Source of the DNA: Spirochaetia bacterium
GTDB taxonomy: Bacteria; Spirochaetota; Leptospirae; Leptospirales; Leptonemataceae
Length of the DNA: 6,683 nt
Assembly: GCA_016195395.1 (NCBI GenBank)
Contig: JACPZR010000129.1
Span: 1-6,683 of the forward strand
Direction: 5' to 3'
A program made the translations under genes and the position numbers. Below, in pieces: positions 1 through 6,683 of the stretch. The notes beneath the pieces are model-generated. The model ran no database searches, was not told the DNA's origin, and was given only the letters and a program-made list of their open reading frames with translations. Position 1 is the first letter of the stretch, and each line of letters opens with the position of its first letter.

Positions 1-1021
1 AGATCTTCTTGCCGGCCTTGATGATCTTCTTTGTGCGCCCGGATTCCGTGTCCAGAATCTGAATGTCGCCGTCGTGGTCGTCTCCGGTGAACGTTACCCA
101 GAGCTCCGTCCCGTCCGGGGATACAACGCTGTAGACGGGGAAACCCAAGAGATCGATCGAGCTGATACGCGAGAAATCTTTCTGCGAAAGAACAGCGATC
201 CTGTGCTCGCCCACCACCGGCATAAAGATCTTGTCCCCGGCAACGGCCCAGCTGGCCATGTGCGGCATCTTGGGTGGAACAACGCCGGGGGCGCTGCCGC
301 GGTAGTCGAGAACGCGCACGGATGGGTGGTCGCTTCTGACATCCACCAAGGAAGACCGCGCCGAATTGATGTGTGCTGTAATGTAGTAACGTCCGTCCGG
401 AGTGATGATCGCGTCAAAGGGGTGGGGAACCGGTGTCGATACCCTGTGCTTCAATTCATACGATGCGGGACCGCCCTCTTTGCCGGGTGCGAGAATCCAG
501 ATCTCATTTCCGTCCATGAGGCCGCAGAGAAACGTATCGGAAGCTCCGTCGGACATGCCGGTGACACGCGAAACGATCTCTTTGCCTTCAAACGTGGTTT
601 TTGCCGGGATTGACTTGGCGATCTTGAACGACTCGAGGTCAACGATTGTCACCCCGCCCGGGTCGTATTCAGCAACGGCCACCGTGCGCGCATCGCGCGA
701 GATGGCAATGCCGATGGAATTCTTTGACGTCTGGAGACTACCCGCTTCTTTCAGGCGCGCAAGATCGATCCTTGAAAGAACTCCGTTTCGCAGGGCCACG
801 TAGCCGTAGCGGAGCGCCGGATCAAAGACCATGCTCGCATGACGCATGTCGCCGGCTGACGTCTGGATTTTAGTGATGAGTTCCATTTTTGCATAGTCGA
901 TGACGGCGAGCTTCCCGCCCGCGCGCTCCACAACAAAGACGCGTGTTCCCACGGTGGCTGTGGGCGTGCAGGCCGAGAGGACTGCGGCCAAAGAGAATGA
1001 TAAGAGTAAGAATTGTTTCAT
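1..1021 (-). CDS. nirF: NirF-like heme d1 biosynthesis lipoprotein (partial, C-terminus beyond left edge)
   Basis: Reading leftward from ATG at 1021, the frame stays open to the window edge (340 codons, no stop), so the gene is partial; NirF proteins are usually about 390 residues. Residues 1-18 form a lipoprotein leader ending in LSAC, so the mature protein should be lipid-anchored at Cys18 and face the periplasm. The rest looks like a beta-propeller related to the d1 domain of cytochrome cd1. NirF-type stretches are HASMVF with His61 (matching a histidine important in characterised NirF), NSIGIAISRDAR, EYDPGGV, PFDAIITPDGRYYI and KMPHMASW. Known NirF proteins act late in heme d1 formation; the exact reaction is not settled. 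A GGAG lies 7 bases before the ATG, and the ATG overlaps the nirJ stop (ATGA), so translation is probably coupled. The main alternative, NirN or a cd1-like protein, is less likely because NirN carries an N-terminal cytochrome c domain and none is seen. Confidence 0.88.
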   Translation of the reverse strand, partial: MKQFLLLSFSLAAVLSACTPTATVGTRVFVVERAGGKLAVIDYAKMELITKIQTSAGDMRHASMVFDPALRYGYVALRNGVLSRIDLARLKEAGSLQTSKNSIGIAISRDARTVAVAEYDPGGVTIVDLESFKIAKSIPAKTTFEGKEIVSRVTGMSDGASDTFLCGLMDGNEIWILAPGKEGGPASYELKHRVSTPVPHPFDAIITPDGRYYITAHINSARSSLVDVRSDHPSVRVLDYRGSAPGVVPPKMPHMASWAVAGDKIFMPVVGEHRIAVLSQKDFSRISSIDLLGFPVYSVVSPDGTELWVTFTGDDHDGDIQILDTESGRTKKIIKAGKKI

Positions 1022-2205
1022 GCTGTTGCTCCAGCGGCTGCGTTTTCCCGCGCAGCGAGTATGTTCTGATCTTGATCTGTCAGGATGCAGGATGGATCTT
1101 CCGCCCATATGTCACCAAAGGCCGCTTCCGCGCGTTCTCTGTGTGATCCGCGGCAGAGCGGGAGCGCCGCACAGGAGGCGCACTTTCCTTTTAGATAACG
1201 TGTGCGATTGCGGAGCGTTTCAACGAGGGGGCTTTTCAGAATAGAGAGAAGGGAGTCTTCTTTGACATTTCCCATGCTGACACTGCGCCAAAACTGGTCA
1301 GGGTGTACGTTTCCTTTGTGGTCGATATTGATGACTTTCTCACCGGCCGAGTTGCCTCCGCGGCGGGCCAGAAGAGTTTGGAGCCTCGCGGTGGCGGCCT
1401 CGCCGTACCTTTGCATAACGTATAGAAGTAGAAGGACACCGTCAGAGTCGTTTCCACCCGTAACGATGCGCACCGGAGATCGACGCTCTACCAACTCCAA
1501 GGCACGGTCAAAGAGGTGTGTGACGAAAGCGCGGGCTTCGTCAGGAGAGAGGTCGTTTCGTGAAAAACCTGCTCCCCGTCCGCTGTACACTAAGTGCGAT
1601 ACGTAAAAGCGTTGGATATTCTCCTTTATACACAGCTCCAGAAGGGAATCAACGTGAGACACATTGATACGACTGACGGTGATGCGGAGACCGGCATTGA
1701 TTCCAGCACGCATGCTGTTACGAATCCCGTCGAGGGCGCGTTCATACGCTCCGTCAAGGCCCCTGTACGTGTCGTTTACGTCCGGCAGGCCGTCAATGCT
1801 CACGCCCACATAACGCACACCGGCCGATTTCAAACGCCCGGCCGCGGCCGGATCGATGAGGACGCCATTAGTTGAAAGCTGGCAGTGGATGCCCTGTTCG
1901 TTGGCTTTTTGGATGAGATCAAAGAGGTCGGGACGCAGCAGCGGTTCACCGCCGGAGAAAATGAGCACACGGATACCGGCCGCCGCCAGGTCGTCCACAA
2001 GTTGGAGCGCGTCTTCATGGGAAAGCTCGTCGGCGCTGACGGCCCGCTTGGCGGTTGAATAGCAGTGCGGGCAGGCCATGTTGCAGGTGTTGGTGACGTT
2101 CCAAATTACGACAGGAGGTGGATTCGCTTGATAGCGTCCGGCCGTATCGGTCTTTGGAGAGTCGTGCTCGAGAATCTGATGGAGGCTGTCCGTTATGGGG
2201 AGCAT
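1018..2205 (-). CDS. nirJ: Heme d1 biosynthesis radical SAM protein NirJ
   Basis: A 395-residue radical SAM enzyme of normal NirJ length. The cluster-binding motif CNMACPHC gives Cys41, Cys45 and Cys48 for the SAM-binding [4Fe-4S] cluster, and GGEP (85-88) is the SAM-contacting motif. The C-terminal region has a SPASM-like cysteine set (Cys342, Cys345, Cys351, Cys373) for an auxiliary cluster. TGGNDSDG, RRGGNSAG and NIDHKGNVHPDQFW are typical of the NirJ/AhbC group. In the heme d1 pathway NirJ acts on didecarboxysiroheme in the cytoplasm and removes the two propionate side chains on the way to the oxo groups. ATG at 2205 has a GGAG about 5 bases upstream, lies inside the end of nirE (13-base overlap), and the stop overlaps the nirF start. 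The related AhbC of siroheme-dependent heme synthesis was considered, but the coupled nirF gene favours NirJ. Confidence 0.92.
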   Translation of the reverse strand: MLPITDSLHQILEHDSPKTDTAGRYQANPPPVVIWNVTNTCNMACPHCYSTAKRAVSADELSHEDALQLVDDLAAAGIRVLIFSGGEPLLRPDLFDLIQKANEQGIHCQLSTNGVLIDPAAAGRLKSAGVRYVGVSIDGLPDVNDTYRGLDGAYERALDGIRNSMRAGINAGLRITVSRINVSHVDSLLELCIKENIQRFYVSHLVYSGRGAGFSRNDLSPDEARAFVTHLFDRALELVERRSPVRIVTGGNDSDGVLLLLYVMQRYGEAATARLQTLLARRGGNSAGEKVINIDHKGNVHPDQFWRSVSMGNVKEDSLLSILKSPLVETLRNRTRYLKGKCASCAALPLCRGSHRERAEAAFGDIWAEDPSCILTDQDQNILAARENAAAGATA

Positions 2206-2990
2206 GCTTTCTCCGCTTGAAGCGACGCAAGGGACAGAGTGCGCAGGGCTTCTCTCTTGTTCAGATGATTTACAACGCGTCCCATGATGACCAGCGCCGG
2301 CGAGTCGATGCCGGCATCGTGTACGCGCCCGAGGATATTGCCCACGGTCCCGGTAACAAAACGTTGGTTGGCACGTGTTGCATTTGAAACGACGCAGACG
2401 GGCTCGTCAACATTGGCCGCATCCTGTGAGACATTGAGGATGATGTCACTGATAATGGTGAGGCCCATATAGACCACGCATGTCTGGCGGGACAGATCAA
2501 GGCCGCGGAAATGCGCGTAATCCCCGTCGCTCCGCTTGTGTCCTGTGAGAAACAAGATCTGTGAAGAAGAGTCGCGGTGGGTGAGGGGAAGGCCCAGACT
2601 TGCCGCGGCTCCGGACGCTGCTGTGATCCCCGGCACAACGTCACACTCGATCCCCCGCGACTGCAGATATTCCTGCTCTTCGCCTCCGCGTCCAAAAACA
2701 AGCGGGTCCCCGCCTTTCAGCCGCACCACCAGCGCATAACGTGAAGCAAGATCCGCGAGCAAAGCATTAGTCTCATGCTGCGGCAGTGTGTGATTTCCCT
2801 TTGTTTTTCCGGCGAAGATCAGCTCAGCCGAGGACCGGCAGTGATGGAGAATCTCTGACCCTACAAGCTGGTCGTACACAACGGCATCTGCGGCTTCCAG
2901 AAAGCGGACGGCTTTCAACGTCAAGAGCTCCGGGTCTCCCGGACCGGCACCCACTAGAACGACGCGGCCCATTTTTCGGCAGTTGCTCAT
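2193..2990 (-). CDS. nirE: Uroporphyrinogen-III C-methyltransferase (SUMT, NirE/CobA type)
   Basis: A single-domain SUMT that uses two SAM to turn uroporphyrinogen III into precorrin-2, the shared precursor of siroheme, heme d1 and cobalamin. Hallmarks, numbered from the longest reading (TTG at 3005, 270 residues), are GAGPGDPELLTLKA (19-32), VRLKGGDPLVFGRGGEE (94-110), VPGITAASGAAA (124-135), LTHR (141-144) and VVYMG (177-181). There is no CysG dehydrogenase/chelatase domain. The start is uncertain: TTG at 3005, ATG at 2990 (chosen here, 265 residues) and ATG at 2972 are all in frame, and none has a clear Shine-Dalgarno sequence. The SAM loop begins just after the last, so all give a full domain. 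It is the first gene of the operon and overlaps nirJ by 13 bases, which makes heme d1 supply its likely role, though the product could also feed siroheme or cobalamin. Confidence 0.9.
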   Translation of the reverse strand: MSNCRKMGRVVLVGAGPGDPELLTLKAVRFLEAADAVVYDQLVGSEILHHCRSSAELIFAGKTKGNHTLPQHETNALLADLASRYALVVRLKGGDPLVFGRGGEEQEYLQSRGIECDVVPGITAASGAAASLGLPLTHRDSSSQILFLTGHKRSDGDYAHFRGLDLSRQTCVVYMGLTIISDIILNVSQDAANVDEPVCVVSNATRANQRFVTGTVGNILGRVHDAGIDSPALVIMGRVVNHLNKREALRTLSLASLQAEKACSP

Positions 2991-3035
2991 GAGATTCGTA
3001 TTCAAGAGGATGATATCCGTAATTAGTCAACCAAG

Positions 3036-3064
3036 AAAATACCGATATTGAGAATGTCTCTCAA
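3036..3064 (-). promoter_or_regulatory. Candidate sigma-70-type promoter of nirEJF
   Basis: On the minus strand TTGAGA (3064-3059; 5 of 6 to the -35 consensus) is followed after exactly 17 bases by TATTTT (3041-3036; 4 of 6 to the -10 consensus). Transcription would begin near 3029, giving a leader of about 40 bases to the ATG at 2990. The -35 box is one arm of the palindrome at 3048-3064. This is a match by eye in a short region; host promoter preferences are unknown. Confidence 0.4.
3048..3064. promoter_or_regulatory. Palindromic candidate operator between nirE and the DUF420 gene
   Basis: TTGAGA-ATGTC-TCTCAA is a perfect 6-bp inverted repeat around a 5-base spacer, 17 bp overall. It sits roughly midway between the divergent starts, about 57 bases from the nirE ATG at 2990 and 62 bases from the DUF420 ATG at 3127. 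Its left-pointing arm doubles as the -35 box of the proposed nirE promoter. The arms resemble the TTGAT...ATCAA half sites of FNR/DNR regulators, but the base at position 5 and the spacing differ, so an FNR site is not claimed. Confidence 0.4.
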
Positions 3065-3126
3065 GCCCTGCGTTTTTCCGATGAATTATCGTTGCGCGCT
3101 ATCGACTTCGGCGCGGGAAGACAACG

Positions 3127-3549
3127 ATGCTTACGGCGCTGGGACATGTGAACGGTTTTCTGAACGCTGTGATCGTGGTCTTGATCGTTTGGGCGTTTCT
3201 GGCCATCCGCAGGGGCGACCGCGTTATGCACCCACGCCTTATGAAAGCGGCGGTTCTGACGGGATGTCTCTTTCTTGTGGGCTACGGAACGCATACGGCG
3301 CTGGCGGGCCACACCCGCTTTCCGGGAAACGACTGGGTGAGGACGTTATTTGTTGTGATTCTCACCACCCACACGGTGCTCGCTGTGGTGGTGGGGCCGC
3401 TGGTTCTGTGGATGCTAGTCCTCGGGATTCGGGGACGGTTCGAAGCTCACAAGCGGCTGGCGCGTTATGCGTACCCAATCTGGCTCTACGTATCCGTGAC
3501 AGGCGTGATCATTTATTGGATGAATAACTTCCTGCGCCCCGCCGGCTGA
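3127..3549 (+). CDS. DUF420 (YozB/CtaM-like) membrane protein
   Basis: A 140-residue, very hydrophobic protein with four predicted membrane helices (about 9-27, 42-60, 73-99 and 115-133). The DUF420 pattern is clear: HVNGFLNA at the N-terminus, AIRRGDRVMHPRLMKAA after helix 1, FLVGYGTHTALAGHTRF after helix 2, ILTTHTVLAVVVGPL in helix 3, and EAHKRLARYAYPIWLYVSVTGVIIY into helix 4. Histidines 7, 35, 56, 62, 82 and 108 include the family's conserved set, which may bind metal or heme. Staphylococcal CtaM of this family is needed to mature a heme-copper oxidase; in other bacteria the family is seen near respiratory genes. Divergence from nirEJF fits a respiratory role, but a direct link to nitrite reductase is inference. 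The ATG is preceded by GGAAG with 6 intervening bases. It is shorter than YozB but keeps the core. Confidence 0.85.
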   Translation: MLTALGHVNGFLNAVIVVLIVWAFLAIRRGDRVMHPRLMKAAVLTGCLFLVGYGTHTALAGHTRFPGNDWVRTLFVVILTTHTVLAVVVGPLVLWMLVLGIRGRFEAHKRLARYAYPIWLYVSVTGVIIYWMNNFLRPAG

Positions 3550-3637
3550 CGCCGTACGCGGGGAGCATGGACTCACCTGGGCATTGAGGTCGCGCTACTC
3601 GAATGGAGCCGCGGCACTTCCGATAATCAATCTTATG
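3550..3637. other. Convergent intergenic gap, no terminator seen
   Basis: These 88 bases separate the convergent ends of the DUF420 and DUF1295 genes. I found no GC-rich hairpin followed by a T run in either direction, so how transcription ends here is not visible. Confidence 0.5.
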
Positions 3638-4423
3638 TCACCGCCGCGGCCGACCCGGAATAAAAGCATTCGTGGATTTCATGTATTCCTCGAACCCAGG
3701 TTTTGTTTTGGCAAGGCCCCGTTCGAGCATGGCCACACCGGATACCTTGAGCAGAAGAAACGTCATCATGAAAGGACTCACGAGAACCCAGAGGGATTGG
3801 ACGTCGAACGTGCCGATGCCGAGCGAAGCGAGCGTCAACCCCCACCATACCACCGCTTCCCCGAAATAGTTGGGATGTCTTGAATAACGCCAGAGCCCCG
3901 TGGTCAGCAGCTTTCCTCTATTCGCCGGGTCCTTCTTGAAAAGAGTCAGCTGGAAATCGGCCACGCTCTCCCACAGAAATCCCACGGTAAAGAGCGCCAT
4001 CCCCGCACCCCAGATGGGCCACGTCACATCGCTCTGTGAATGGGACGCGCGGCCGAGCGGCCACGAGAGAATCCAGAGAATGAGGCCCTGCAGGAGAAAA
4101 ACCTGGAAGAGGCTTCGAAGCGGCCAGACGGCTCCGTACTCATTTCGCCACTGCGCATAGCGGTAGTCTTCTCCTTTGCCTGCGTTGCGCATCAGGATGT
4201 GGAAGCCCAGGCGCAGACCCCAGAGCGCTGTTGCCGCCAGCGTTATCAGCATGGGAGCATCCCAGATGCGATTCTCCCATACATAGTAAGCGGCGAGCAG
4301 TCCCATGAAGGGTCCCCACGCAATATCCGCAATGCTTGCATTTCTCAACATCAGGCTCAGAAGCCAGAGGAAGAACATCAATCCCAGTGTCAGGAGTGCG
4401 CCGTTCAAGAGAAGCTGAATCAT
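3638..4423 (-). CDS. DUF1295 family membrane protein (steroid 5-alpha-reductase-like)
   Basis: A 261-residue integral membrane protein with several hydrophobic segments (about 4-25, 36-50, 57-75, 105-121, 136-152, 190-204 and 210-228). The DUF1295 signature is present: SIADIAWG (30-37), LWGLRLG (68-74), WESVADFQL (151-159), GLWRYSRHPNYFGE (176-189) and VSGVAMLER (228-236), with a final EEY...TNAFIP. The RHPNYFGE region is shared with the C-terminal domain of steroid 5-alpha-reductases and isoprenylcysteine methyltransferases, where it takes part in cofactor binding. The substrate is unknown; reduction or methylation of a lipid is plausible but not shown. ATG at 4423 has a GGGAG 7 bases upstream, inside the end of the acyltransferase gene, and overlaps its stop (ATGA). 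That coupling suggests both proteins work on membrane lipids. Confidence 0.88.
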   Translation of the reverse strand: MIQLLLNGALLTLGLMFFLWLLSLMLRNASIADIAWGPFMGLLAAYYVWENRIWDAPMLITLAATALWGLRLGFHILMRNAGKGEDYRYAQWRNEYGAVWPLRSLFQVFLLQGLILWILSWPLGRASHSQSDVTWPIWGAGMALFTVGFLWESVADFQLTLFKKDPANRGKLLTTGLWRYSRHPNYFGEAVVWWGLTLASLGIGTFDVQSLWVLVSPFMMTFLLLKVSGVAMLERGLAKTKPGFEEYMKSTNAFIPGRPRR

Positions 4424-5172
4424 TTCTGGTCTCCCTGCGTCGTTACCGTCTGCGTTCCGGGAAGGCCTGACTGGATAACGTTTCGCACTGTGTCTGACAG
4501 TTCCGCAGCAGACATCGCCCCATAACGTTCCGGTGCGATGGCTTCATGCACGGTCACAAACACATCGCCCCGGTATATGCGCTGGATCCAGCGCCCTTTT
4601 TGAACGGGAAGGCACGCACCGGTCCCGTGGATGGTGAGCGGCTGGATTGTCACCTCAGCTTTCTTTGCGAGGATGAACGCTCCCTGTTTGAACGGCAGCA
4701 TTTTGCCTGTTTTGGTGCGCGTACCCTCCGGAAAGATGAACACAGAAATCCCGGCCTTCACGCGCTCTGCTGCCCTGTAGAGGCTCTTCATCCCGGCGTC
4801 TTTATTTTCACGGGCAATGGGAATGTAGCCTGTGCGCTTCATCCCGCGGCCTAGGATTGGGATACGGAACAAGGAGTCTTTGGCGAGCCACCTGTACTGG
4901 GTTTTCAGCACGGCGCCCACAATGAGCACATCAAACAGACTCTCGTGATTGGAAACGTAGATTACGGGCGGCGTGCGGTTCAATCTCTCCGGATGAATCA
5001 CGTGCAACCTCGCGGGCGAGATGAAAACCATTAAACGGCACCACCATACGTGAAAGACATGGGCCCCCGCCGCAGACCCAAACAGGAGACATACGAGTCC
5101 GCCGAGCACAAACAGCGGCGAAAGGGCCCAGAACACCATCCAATACAAAGTGGATCTTACGGCATCGATCAA
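4420..5172 (-). CDS. plsC: 1-acyl-sn-glycerol-3-phosphate acyltransferase (PlsC family)
   Basis: Transfers an acyl chain to lysophosphatidic acid (or a related lysolipid) at the inner membrane to make phosphatidic acid. Counting from TTG at 5172 (250 residues), all acyltransferase blocks are present: NHESLFD with catalytic His76 and Asp81, GYIPIAREN (115-123), FPEGTRTKTG (147-156), and VTIQPLTIHGTG, the proline block. An N-terminal hydrophobic stretch of about 30 residues should anchor it. The frame is open to another TTG at 5238, but the 22 extra residues are hydrophilic, resemble no family member, and lie in the control region. The TTG at 5172 has a strong GGAGGT just upstream and gives the usual family length. 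The gene overlaps the DUF1295 gene by four bases. Specificity could be for another lysophospholipid or ornithine lipid precursor, so the symbol denotes family only. Confidence 0.88.
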   Translation of the reverse strand: MIDAVRSTLYWMVFWALSPLFVLGGLVCLLFGSAAGAHVFHVWWCRLMVFISPARLHVIHPERLNRTPPVIYVSNHESLFDVLIVGAVLKTQYRWLAKDSLFRIPILGRGMKRTGYIPIARENKDAGMKSLYRAAERVKAGISVFIFPEGTRTKTGKMLPFKQGAFILAKKAEVTIQPLTIHGTGACLPVQKGRWIQRIYRGDVFVTVHEAIAPERYGAMSAAELSDTVRNVIQSGLPGTQTVTTQGDQK

Positions 5173-5176
5173 AGCA

Positions 5177-5182
5177 ACCTCC
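5177..5182 (-). promoter_or_regulatory. Ribosome binding site that sets the plsC start
   Basis: GGAGGT on the minus strand ends 4 bases before TTG at 5172. It is the best Shine-Dalgarno match in this region and is the reason for choosing the shorter reading over TTG at 5238. Confidence 0.65.
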
Positions 5183-5231
5183 GTGGCTCCTGAACAAGAA
5201 CGAGGAGACACCCCGCTTTGACGCCTACTTT

Positions 5232-5262
5232 TTGTCAAATGTTAACTGCAAGCATTTGACAA
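5232..5262. repeat. Perfect 10-bp inverted repeat, candidate operator or upstream activator site
   Basis: TTGTCAAATG (5232-5241) and CATTTGACAA (5253-5262) are exact reverse complements separated by 11 bases; the spacer begins so that GTTAAC (5241-5246) is also palindromic. The centre (about 5247) is roughly 75 bases upstream of the plsC start and about 195 bases upstream of the expected sigma-54 transcription start. No transcript enters here from either flank and there is no T run, so a protein-binding site is more likely than a terminator. It does not match the NtrC site I know (TGCACC-N5-GGTGCA). Confidence 0.6.
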
Positions 5263-5417
5263 GAGAATCGCGGAGGCGCGCACGAGGTCCACGCCGCTGT
5301 AGTCGTGCTTCCCCGCATTCATCCTCACTGGGCCCACGTCGGCCCCAGAGTGCCCAAAATCCCCACAAAAAGCCCGGTGAAGAGGCCGCATTTTCGCTTT
5401 CGAGGCGCTGATGGGGA

Positions 5418-5433
5418 TGGCACGGTTTTTGCA
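5418..5433 (+). promoter_or_regulatory. Sigma-54 (RpoN) -24/-12 promoter
   Basis: TGGCACG (5418-5424), four bases, then TTGCA (5429-5433) matches the sigma-54 consensus TGGCACG-N4-TTGCW at every core position. The invariant GG (5419-5420) and GC (5431-5432) are separated by the required 10 bases. Transcription should begin near 5443-5446, only about 15 bases before the receiver ATG at 5459. A sigma-54 promoter needs an AAA+ activator bound upstream; the inverted repeat at 5232-5262 is a candidate site. Confidence 0.85.
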
Positions 5434-5458
5434 ACGCACTACTCATGGGGATGCGGAA

Positions 5459-5824
5459 ATGCGGCTTCTAATTGTGGACGATTCAAACGTGGTCCGCCGG
5501 GCGATCGAAAAATACCTGGGGCCGCTGGGAATGACGTTAGTCGGCACCGCGGGCGACGGGGAGACGGCTTTGACCATCTTCCGACAGCACCTGCCGGATC
5601 TCGTCACGCTCGACATCACGATGCCCAAGATGGACGGCCTCGCCTGCCTCGACGCGATGATGCAGATCAAAAAGGACACCAAGGTGCTCATCATCAGCGC
5701 GCTGTCCGACCAGCACACGGGGCTCCTTGCGCTCAAGAAGGGCGCCCGCGGATTTCTCCCAAAACCGATTACGGAGGCATTGCTGCTCGAAGAAGTGCGA
5801 CGCATCGCGGGAGCCTCCGTATGA
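5459..5824 (+). CDS. CheY-like single-domain response regulator
   Basis: A 121-residue receiver with nothing attached. The acidic pair is Asp7-Asp8 in LLIVDDS, the phosphorylation site is Asp52 in LVTLDITMPKMDG, Ser80 is the switch residue in VLIISALSD, and Lys102 lies in FLPKPI. With no output domain it must act by protein contact or as a phosphorelay intermediate. The frame is open upstream with an ATG at 5411, but that start would put the sigma-54 promoter inside the gene; ATG at 5459 gives an ordinary receiver N-terminus. Its Shine-Dalgarno is weak (GGGG 8 bases upstream). It overlaps the CheX-like gene by four bases (ATGA), so the phosphatase next door probably acts on it. The cognate kinase is not in the window; it could be fused to or follow the Amt gene. 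I avoid the symbol cheY because no chemotaxis gene is nearby. Confidence 0.9.
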   Translation: MRLLIVDDSNVVRRAIEKYLGPLGMTLVGTAGDGETALTIFRQHLPDLVTLDITMPKMDGLACLDAMMQIKKDTKVLIISALSDQHTGLLALKKGARGFLPKPITEALLLEEVRRIAGASV

Positions 5825-6267
5825 CAGAACAAGAGCTCAGAACATTCATCAAGGTCGTCATGACCTATTTTGAGACTGTCTCCGGTGAGCCGTCCCGCAT
5901 GGGACTGCCTTCCATTAAACGCAAAGACAGTCCGCTTTCGGATTTTACAGGAGCAATCGGCATTTCAGGAGCGCGCCGTGGCGCCGTTTACTTCACGGCC
6001 CCGCGGGCTCTCATGATTGATTTTGCCGCGCAGATCCTGGGAGAAGGCAGTCACGACGACGAAAGCCTGTACGATCTTGTGGGAGAAATGACGAACACAA
6101 TCGCCGGGAATGTGCGCGAGACGTTCGGCCCTGAGTTTATGATTTCAGTGCCGATGATCGTCAAAGGTAACGCTACGGATATCGACGTGCGGCTTGCCAA
6201 CTCTGTCTTCCTTGTCCCCATCGAATGGCGCACCCATAAGTGCTACCTGGGGATTGGGTTGGAGTAG
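5821..6267 (+). CDS. CheX-like chemotaxis phosphatase
   Basis: A 148-residue protein of the CheC/CheX/FliY phosphatase superfamily. The single catalytic motif ExxN is seen in VGEMTNTIAGN (Glu89, Asn92, with the trailing Asn97), the form typical of CheX: one active helix per subunit and a dimeric enzyme. Flanking features also fit, including GAIGISGARRGAVYFTAPRAL for the central sheet and a C-terminal strand region FLVPIEWRTHKCYLGIGLE. Such proteins remove phosphate from CheY-like receivers, so the partner is most likely the receiver encoded directly upstream, with which it overlaps by four bases. The frame is open far upstream to about 5305, but that part runs through the receiver gene in another frame and is not coding. 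The ATG at 5821 gives the normal family length. Confidence 0.85.
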   Translation: MTEQELRTFIKVVMTYFETVSGEPSRMGLPSIKRKDSPLSDFTGAIGISGARRGAVYFTAPRALMIDFAAQILGEGSHDDESLYDLVGEMTNTIAGNVRETFGPEFMISVPMIVKGNATDIDVRLANSVFLVPIEWRTHKCYLGIGLE

Positions 6268-6271
6268 CGGC

Positions 6272-6275
6272 GGAG
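6272..6275 (+). promoter_or_regulatory. Ribosome binding site of the Amt gene
   Basis: GGAG lies 7 bases before the ATG at 6283, in the 15-base gap after the CheX-like stop, and supports that start. Confidence 0.6.
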
Positions 6276-6282
6276 TTGACGG

Positions 6283-6683
6283 ATGGAAAAGACACAGGTT
6301 GACATACTCTGGATTATCGTCGCTTCCGCGCTTGTGTTTATCATGCGCGCCGGCTTTGCCATGCTTGAGACAGGGCTTACGCGTTCCAAAAATTCCATCA
6401 ACGTTGCGGTCAAAGTGCTGACCGATCTGGGCATTTCGCTGGCCGCCTTCTGGCCGTTTGGTTTTGGTCTGATGTTCGGGGCCAGCCGCTGGGGTGTATT
6501 TGGAACCAGCTACTTTCTGCCGGATTTCAGCGCCGTCTGGATAACGGTTTTCTTCCTCTTTCACGCCATGTTCTGTTCCACTGCGGCTACGATTGTCTCC
6601 GGTGCGGTGGCGGAACGGATTCGATATTCGGCCTACATCGTGATCACTTTCGTTTTTTCAGGCCTCGTCTATCCGGTGGTAGG
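6283..6683 (+). CDS. Amt/Rh-family ammonium transporter or Amt-type sensor (partial, runs off right edge)
   Basis: The frame is open from ATG at 6283 to the edge (133 codons). The first membrane helices of an ammonium channel are plain: ILWIIVASALVFIMRAGFAMLETGLTRSKNSINVA (8-42), FWPFGFGLMFG (56-66), and FLFHAMFCSTAATIVSGAVAER (91-112) followed by YSAYIVITFVFSGLVYPVV. Phe97 falls where the Amt phenylalanine gate is. Departures from the usual Amt pattern are Arg22 for Gln in the (Q)AGFAxLExG motif, Val45 for Asn in the KN pair, and His94 for Gln in FQxxF. There is no cleavable signal peptide and the N-terminus is very short. The gene follows the CheX-like gene by 15 bases and is probably transcribed from the sigma-54 promoter. 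Proteins with this short N-terminus, in my recollection, are often Amt domains fused to histidine kinase or GGDEF modules; the missing C-terminus would decide between transporter and sensor. Confidence 0.88.
   Translation, partial: MEKTQVDILWIIVASALVFIMRAGFAMLETGLTRSKNSINVAVKVLTDLGISLAAFWPFGFGLMFGASRWGVFGTSYFLPDFSAVWITVFFLFHAMFCSTAATIVSGAVAERIRYSAYIVITFVFSGLVYPVV

Follow-up and report, generated by a model that had tools for sequence, protein, structure and literature searches.

Why does an Amt-family gene stand directly behind a CheY-like receiver and a CheX-type phosphatase, and what reads its signal? The question is raised by the right end of a 6,683-nucleotide stretch of DNA from a Spirochaetia bacterium (GenBank assembly GCA_016195395.1, contig JACPZR010000129.1, positions 1 to 6,683, forward strand), here called the window. 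An original prediction, made from the sequence alone, held that the Amt protein senses or gates ammonium and that its signal is read by the receiver. The conserved gene order described below supports that part, but the prediction overlooked a CheA-type kinase. Because such a kinase lies in the Amt frame in 19 of 24 related loci, the Amt signal very probably reaches the receiver via the fused kinase. Overall, we regard it as likely that the genes at the right end of the window are the 5′ part of an operon of spirochaete type, which would encode a chemotaxis-like pathway that senses ammonium and does not depend on the chemoreceptor array.

The three genes lie on the + strand. The receiver (5459-5824; 121 residues; Pfam Response_reg 92.1 bits, cut-off 30.2) and the phosphatase (5821-6267; 148 residues; CheX PF13690 70.4 bits, cut-off 27) overlap by ATGA at 5821-5824, as read from the sequence. 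The Amt gene (6283-6681; PF00909 107.6 bits, cut-off 23.2) follows after a 15-base spacer (6268-6282), in which a GGAG at 6272-6275 is likely its ribosome-binding site. Coordinates, Pfam scores and conserved residues all agree with the arrangement first described, that of a receiver and an ExxN phosphatase overlapping by ATGA with Amt 15 bases on. The Amt frame is open at the contig end and comprises 133 residues, the N-terminal third of the Amt domain only. The receiver stands alone, with two acidic residues, the phospho-acceptor Asp52, a Ser/Thr, a Lys and no output domain. The five solved relatives found for the phosphatase, which has its ExxN motif at residues 89-92, are CheX/CheC-like proteins; its score against the CheX_Thtogales equivalog NF041094 was 28.3 bits, below the cut-off of 280. 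It would be expected to dephosphorylate its partner receiver.

Conservation of the Receiver-CheX-Amt Order

Species genomes were scanned with a 30-member CheX alignment, and the best 80 of 302 loci were kept as a reference set (loci are given L numbers below); an earlier genome scan with a single CheX protein as query gave no match. A receiver was observed upstream of CheX, on the same strand and within 300 bases, in 77 of the 80 loci (exceptions L032, L047 and L078). A CheA-type kinase was present on the same strand within 900 bases in 73; by this rule L013, L014, L022, L023, L026, L032 and L046 had none. Receiver residues Asp7, Asp8, Asp52 and Lys102 were invariant in the 78 loci aligned, position 80 being Ser or Thr in every one, and the Glu89 and Asn92 of CheX were present in 80/80. 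Amt adjoined CheX, giving the order receiver-CheX-Amt, in 24 of the 80 loci. This order is beyond chance, and the search for conserved neighbourhoods came out in favour of the original prediction.

Seventeen of the 19 loci with Amt and a CheA-type kinase in a single frame encode proteins of 901-1060 residues, and in L006 and L010 the frame is cut by the contig end. Amt and kinase are read in two frames in L013, and in L014 the contig stops ahead of the kinase. By their labels, 17 of the 19 fused loci come from spirochaetes; the other two are L021 (Bacteroidetes) and L037 (labelled simply as a bacterium). Among 392 sampled genomes of the phylum, 135 had a CheX match of some kind, at least 54 matched the kinase core closely (E 1e-30; a lower bound, as up to five candidates were scored per genome) and, where the better places were read, Amt was found beside CheX in at least 21.

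Is the Window Amt Fused to a Kinase?

In a tree of 49 Amt rows, the window Amt grouped with the fusions of L017 and L009 (100/97, starred), among 33 fused or CheX-linked rows. A branch of 92/81 (unstarred) separated these rows from 15 plain Amts, including those of L041, L050 and L077. The Amt domain starts at residue 9 of the window frame by Pfam, as in the fusions; in the frames of the three gammaproteobacterial loci just named, 37-50 residues precede it. A fusion is likely in the window because of this grouping and the matching frame start, and the window Amt probably continues into a PAS domain, an Hpt/P1 domain, P3-like helices and a P4 ATPase without CheW, with a total length of ~910 residues.

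A competing explanation is that the window Amt is no more than a transporter, encoded by a gene of its own in one operon with the receiver and CheX, with the kinase elsewhere. The relay would then respond to some other signal and either tune ammonium uptake or go along with it. L041, L050 and L077 provide a precedent, as in these loci a plain Amt follows the receiver and CheX and the kinase is a separate upstream gene; gene order alone is therefore no proof of fusion. Nevertheless, the window Amt clusters with the fused Amts and apart from these three, and the gene preceding the window receiver is not a kinase but an acyltransferase gene on the opposite strand (4420-5238, - strand; open reading frame list and Pfam). 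We consider this explanation improbable. In their own right, the three loci, with an Amt of another clade, represent a second, fusion-free link between the receiver-CheX cassette and Amt.

The related idea of a plain transporter next to glnK was rejected based on the Amt tree grouping, the conserved order and the surroundings of the fused relatives. In a survey of 16 genomes, none of the 14 fused cassette genes had a PII gene within 1 kb. Within the same distance, a PII gene was found for 18 of 22 other Amts with frames below 560 residues (three of them fragments), for 3 of 7 other Amts with longer frames and for neither of two gammaproteobacterial Amts beside CheX. PII-linked Amts were also present in 13 of the 14 fusion-bearing genomes (exception G013). 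A plain Amt followed by glnK in an order that relatives do not share, the outcome named as fatal to the original prediction, was thus not what the relatives displayed.

The gammaproteobacterial loci are one of several observations that weigh against our reading of the window. Amt residue 133 is the last one in the window, ahead of any kinase part, and the placement of the window Amt rests on 133 columns. In a CheX tree (90 rows, made by a quick method from few columns and poorly resolved; L058 and the overlapping or truncated L150-L154 were left out), the fused label needs five changes (shuffled mean 25.8), at least two of them forced, and no starred set contains the window. Other points concern the ammonium site. 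The best solved sequence relatives of the window Amt are Sd-Amt1 (PDB 8qj3/8qpf) and Ks-Amt5 (PDB 6eu6). When positions were matched by eye, the Ks-Amt5 site residues Q24, E31, N47, D50, T51, T109 and T112 corresponded to R22, E29, V45, D48, L49, a Thr and a Ser in the window; three of the seven are kept (E31, D50 and T109) and four are changed (Q24 to Arg22, N47 to Val45, T51 to Leu49 and T112 to Ser). Among the pore plugs, the window retains F27 and has Leu in place of Y30 and F34. The Q, E, N and D residues of the ammonium site were rejected as a mark of sensors, as 11 of the 15 plain Amts have them too. Given the differences in ligand site and pore plugs, the ligand and transport of the window Amt may differ from those of Ks-Amt5. 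Ammonium is, from the family to which the domain belongs, the presumed ligand and signal.

The Fused CheA-Type Kinase in Relatives

The fusions in relatives have the architecture Amt, PAS, Hpt and P3/P4, with CheW absent. The Hpt motif (HxxKG) and the P4 ATPase boxes of canonical CheA are present, their key residues being invariant in 17 fusions, and matches to CheA P3-P4 were obtained for the fused kinases. The stretch that follows Amt, FTExGQIA, is conserved in the fusions, and a structure model of the L017 fusion matched Amt structures. In the seven fusions scanned, there was no match to a CheW-like P5 domain, the alignment ending ~25 residues or less past P4, and no match to HisKA (PF00512), with Hpt present instead. 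Among ten kinase-candidate genes scanned, eight had Hpt and HATPase_c; of the other two, that of L024 encoded a ribonucleotide reductase and that of L050 gave no match. A large survey, in its accessible part, found four core domains in all its CheAs and counted CheW among them (PMC10542144). By that count, the fused kinase is not a canonical CheA, yet its domains are those of a protein predicted to work like one.

Could the window Amt be fused to a different effector, such as a HisKA kinase like that of Ks-Amt5, or the effector of Sd-Amt1? These two are the closest solved Amts. Relatives with the same gene order carry the CheA-type kinase instead, and in the best 120 of 7,663 matches to the L017 fusion, HATPase_c was present in 120, Amt in 119 and Hpt in 114 (counted by eye). 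A different effector is, in our view, highly improbable. Long Amt frames (635-833 residues) were also observed outside the CheX cassette, on contigs C57, C75 and C90 of genome G007 and contig C3 of genome G014, and these are possibly other Amt fusions.

Two Amt Types and a Possible Exchange of Sensors

Two of the Ks-Amt5 site positions covary in the fused Amts. Of 125 rows, 102 are of a Q/N type and 22, like the window, of an R/V type; none is mixed, and in one row the first of the two positions is missing. The R/V Amts form one clade on the Amt part (98, starred; one change). On the tree of linker and kinase, six changes are required for the same label, with starred branches forcing at least five of them, and on the whole-protein tree three. 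These trees were quick and made without a mixture model, and 5 of 120 proteins, shorter than 880 residues, were dropped. The conflict between the Amt-part and kinase-part trees fits an exchange of Amt domains among kinases, with which recombination would be compatible; we regard this as a lead.

Differences were also observed at the level of whole sensors. L016 (CheX 53% identical) has the same operon; read by eye, the linker and kinase there are the same as well, but the N-terminal region in front of them is a different one, contains hydrophobic segments and was not identified by Pfam. In six further loci this kinase core is joined to CZB (two loci), GAF, PAS, Cache or propeller domains. The receiver, CheX and CheA-type kinase are a wider cassette with varied sensors. 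Whether the receiver, CheX and the CheW-less kinase form a widespread array-free chassis in several phyla, with cartridge-like sensors (Amt, Cache, CZB, GAF, PAS, propeller), is to us an evenly balanced question. On that view the Amt domain would be swapped between kinases and would exist in two types, Q/N and R/V (that of the window), maybe tuned to different ammonium ranges.

Further variations of the cassette were noted. Two different CheX genes stand in tandem downstream of the receiver in L023, L026, L046 and L067, and in L026 and L046 a kinase/cyclase pair lies slightly upstream of this tandem-CheX cassette. A gene of ~477-509 residues resembling the kinase core was observed downstream of CheX in L033, L043, L047, L058, L062 and L069; L033, L043, L058 and L062 also have a kinase upstream of the receiver.

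Proposed Pathway and Candidate Outputs

We propose that ammonium enters or binds the Amt domain, upon which the cytoplasmic side of Amt would shift. This shift would be relayed by the FTExGQIA stretch and the PAS domain, P4 would phosphorylate the Hpt histidine, and the phosphate would pass from there to Asp52 of the stand-alone receiver. CheX would then strip the phosphate from the receiver, setting the duration of the signal. The direction of the response and its output are put forward here as predictions; candidates for the latter are the class III cyclase that some relatives encode next to the kinase, the flagellar motor and other enzymes.

In ten loci, the gene that follows the fusion was scanned: nine of these genes encode a class III cyclase with a PAS or receiver domain in front, and that of L011 encodes SpoIIE. 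A homology search with three cyclase queries, which may overlook distant cyclases, placed a cyclase downstream of the fusion in 15 of the 17 fused loci of a first set that offered room for it, and in 1 of 10 such loci of a second set. In L003 neither a cyclase nor SpoIIE was found downstream. The cyclase was rejected as a universal part based on the difference between the two sets. An output through cyclic nucleotide signalling by this fourth gene, a PAS-class III cyclase, would be in keeping with the first set and with the first metal aspartate, which is kept in 9 of 15 cyclases (by eye). That aspartate is missing, however, in L009, L017, L018, L019, L020 and L021. Because the Amts of L009 and L017 lie closest to the window Amt in the tree, a cyclic AMP output is not to be assumed for the window, and with the second set, L011 and L003 also against it, cyclic nucleotide output seems a doubtful, though possible, outcome. 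Lys and Thr at the substrate positions, whose roles we presume, suggest adenylate cyclases. In L009, L017 and L020, the fourth gene has its aspartate-deficient cyclase domain beside an otherwise intact sensor operon, and it possibly represents a regulatory pseudo-cyclase.

Alternatively, the output could be ammonium taxis, with the phosphorylated receiver acting in the manner of CheY on the flagellar motor and bypassing the chemoreceptor array. The stand-alone CheY-like receiver, the CheX and the CheA-type kinase are as this would require, and chemotaxis proteins are present, since CheW-family matches were found in all 16 genomes of the survey. Nothing direct speaks against it; some relatives have a cyclase or SpoIIE gene beside the kinase instead. 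We think taxis rather unlikely as the output.

Other Genes and Searches of the Window

At the left end of the window (2-3005, - strand), genes for a cytochrome d1-domain protein, a NirJ-like radical SAM protein and a uroporphyrinogen-III methyltransferase are clustered and resemble heme d1 biosynthesis genes; they share the contig with a right end of spirochaetal look. The radical SAM protein was matched in 43 of 198 genomes of the phylum (E 1e-40). A plasmid search of the window gave no match, and promoter- and terminator-like sites, which lay inside the Amt frame or on the opposite strand, were not used.

Comparison with Known Systems

The nearest described system is Ks-Amt5 of Kuenenia stuttgartiensis. 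According to the accessible part of its description (PMC5764959), its Amt domain binds ammonium without transporting it and regulates a HisKA kinase, whose phosphorylation is altered by ammonium; the protein has 679 residues and no PAS domain, and its response regulator is yet to be identified. As far as that text goes, the likeness extends to the Amt-kinase fusion itself, the kept pore histidines and the lack of glnK near the gene. The relatives described here differ in having PAS and a CheA-type Hpt/P3/P4, with receiver and phosphatase in the operon, and the window in the four changed residues of the ammonium site. Ks-Amt5 is the sole Amt-kinase named in the accessible parts of PMC8534201 and PMC10433425.

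Sd-Amt1 of Shewanella denitrificans (PDB 8qj3, 8qj4 and 8qpf) is the best Amt-domain match by sequence and fold, and its post-Amt stretch aligns, but its chains have 644-661 residues and therefore another C-terminal part. No publication on Sd-Amt1 was found in the open-access literature. We take its effector to be a diguanylate cyclase.

With the CheA-CheY-CheX phosphorelay, the system shares the Hpt histidine, the CheA-type P4 ATPase, the single-domain receiver and the CheX phosphatase; it differs in that the fusions scanned are without CheW/P5 and carry sensor and kinase in one protein. The GlnK-AmtB pair likewise involves ammonium and an Amt protein, but the 14 fused genes checked are not PII-linked and the Amt C-terminus runs into the kinase. 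The two-component system GrtK-GrtR of Burkholderia glumae also senses external ammonia, but its sensor is not, by the part of the report available, of the ammonia transporter family (PMC12918730).

Neither fusions of Amt with a CheA-type kinase nor a receiver-CheX-Amt operon were found described in the open-access literature, which leaves most subscription papers outside. Fusions of Amt to kinases are already known from Ks-Amt5, of the HisKA type; the CheA-type version with receiver and CheX is likely a new way of reading ammonium. If the proposed pathway is true, a complete route from ammonium to receiver would lie in one operon, where for Ks-Amt5 the partner receiver is, in the source as accessible, still to be identified. 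Chemotaxis-type kinases could then operate free of an array by carrying their own sensor, and the natural variants, namely the N-terminal region of L016 and the R/V and Q/N Amts, open the coupling of sensor and kinase to direct testing.
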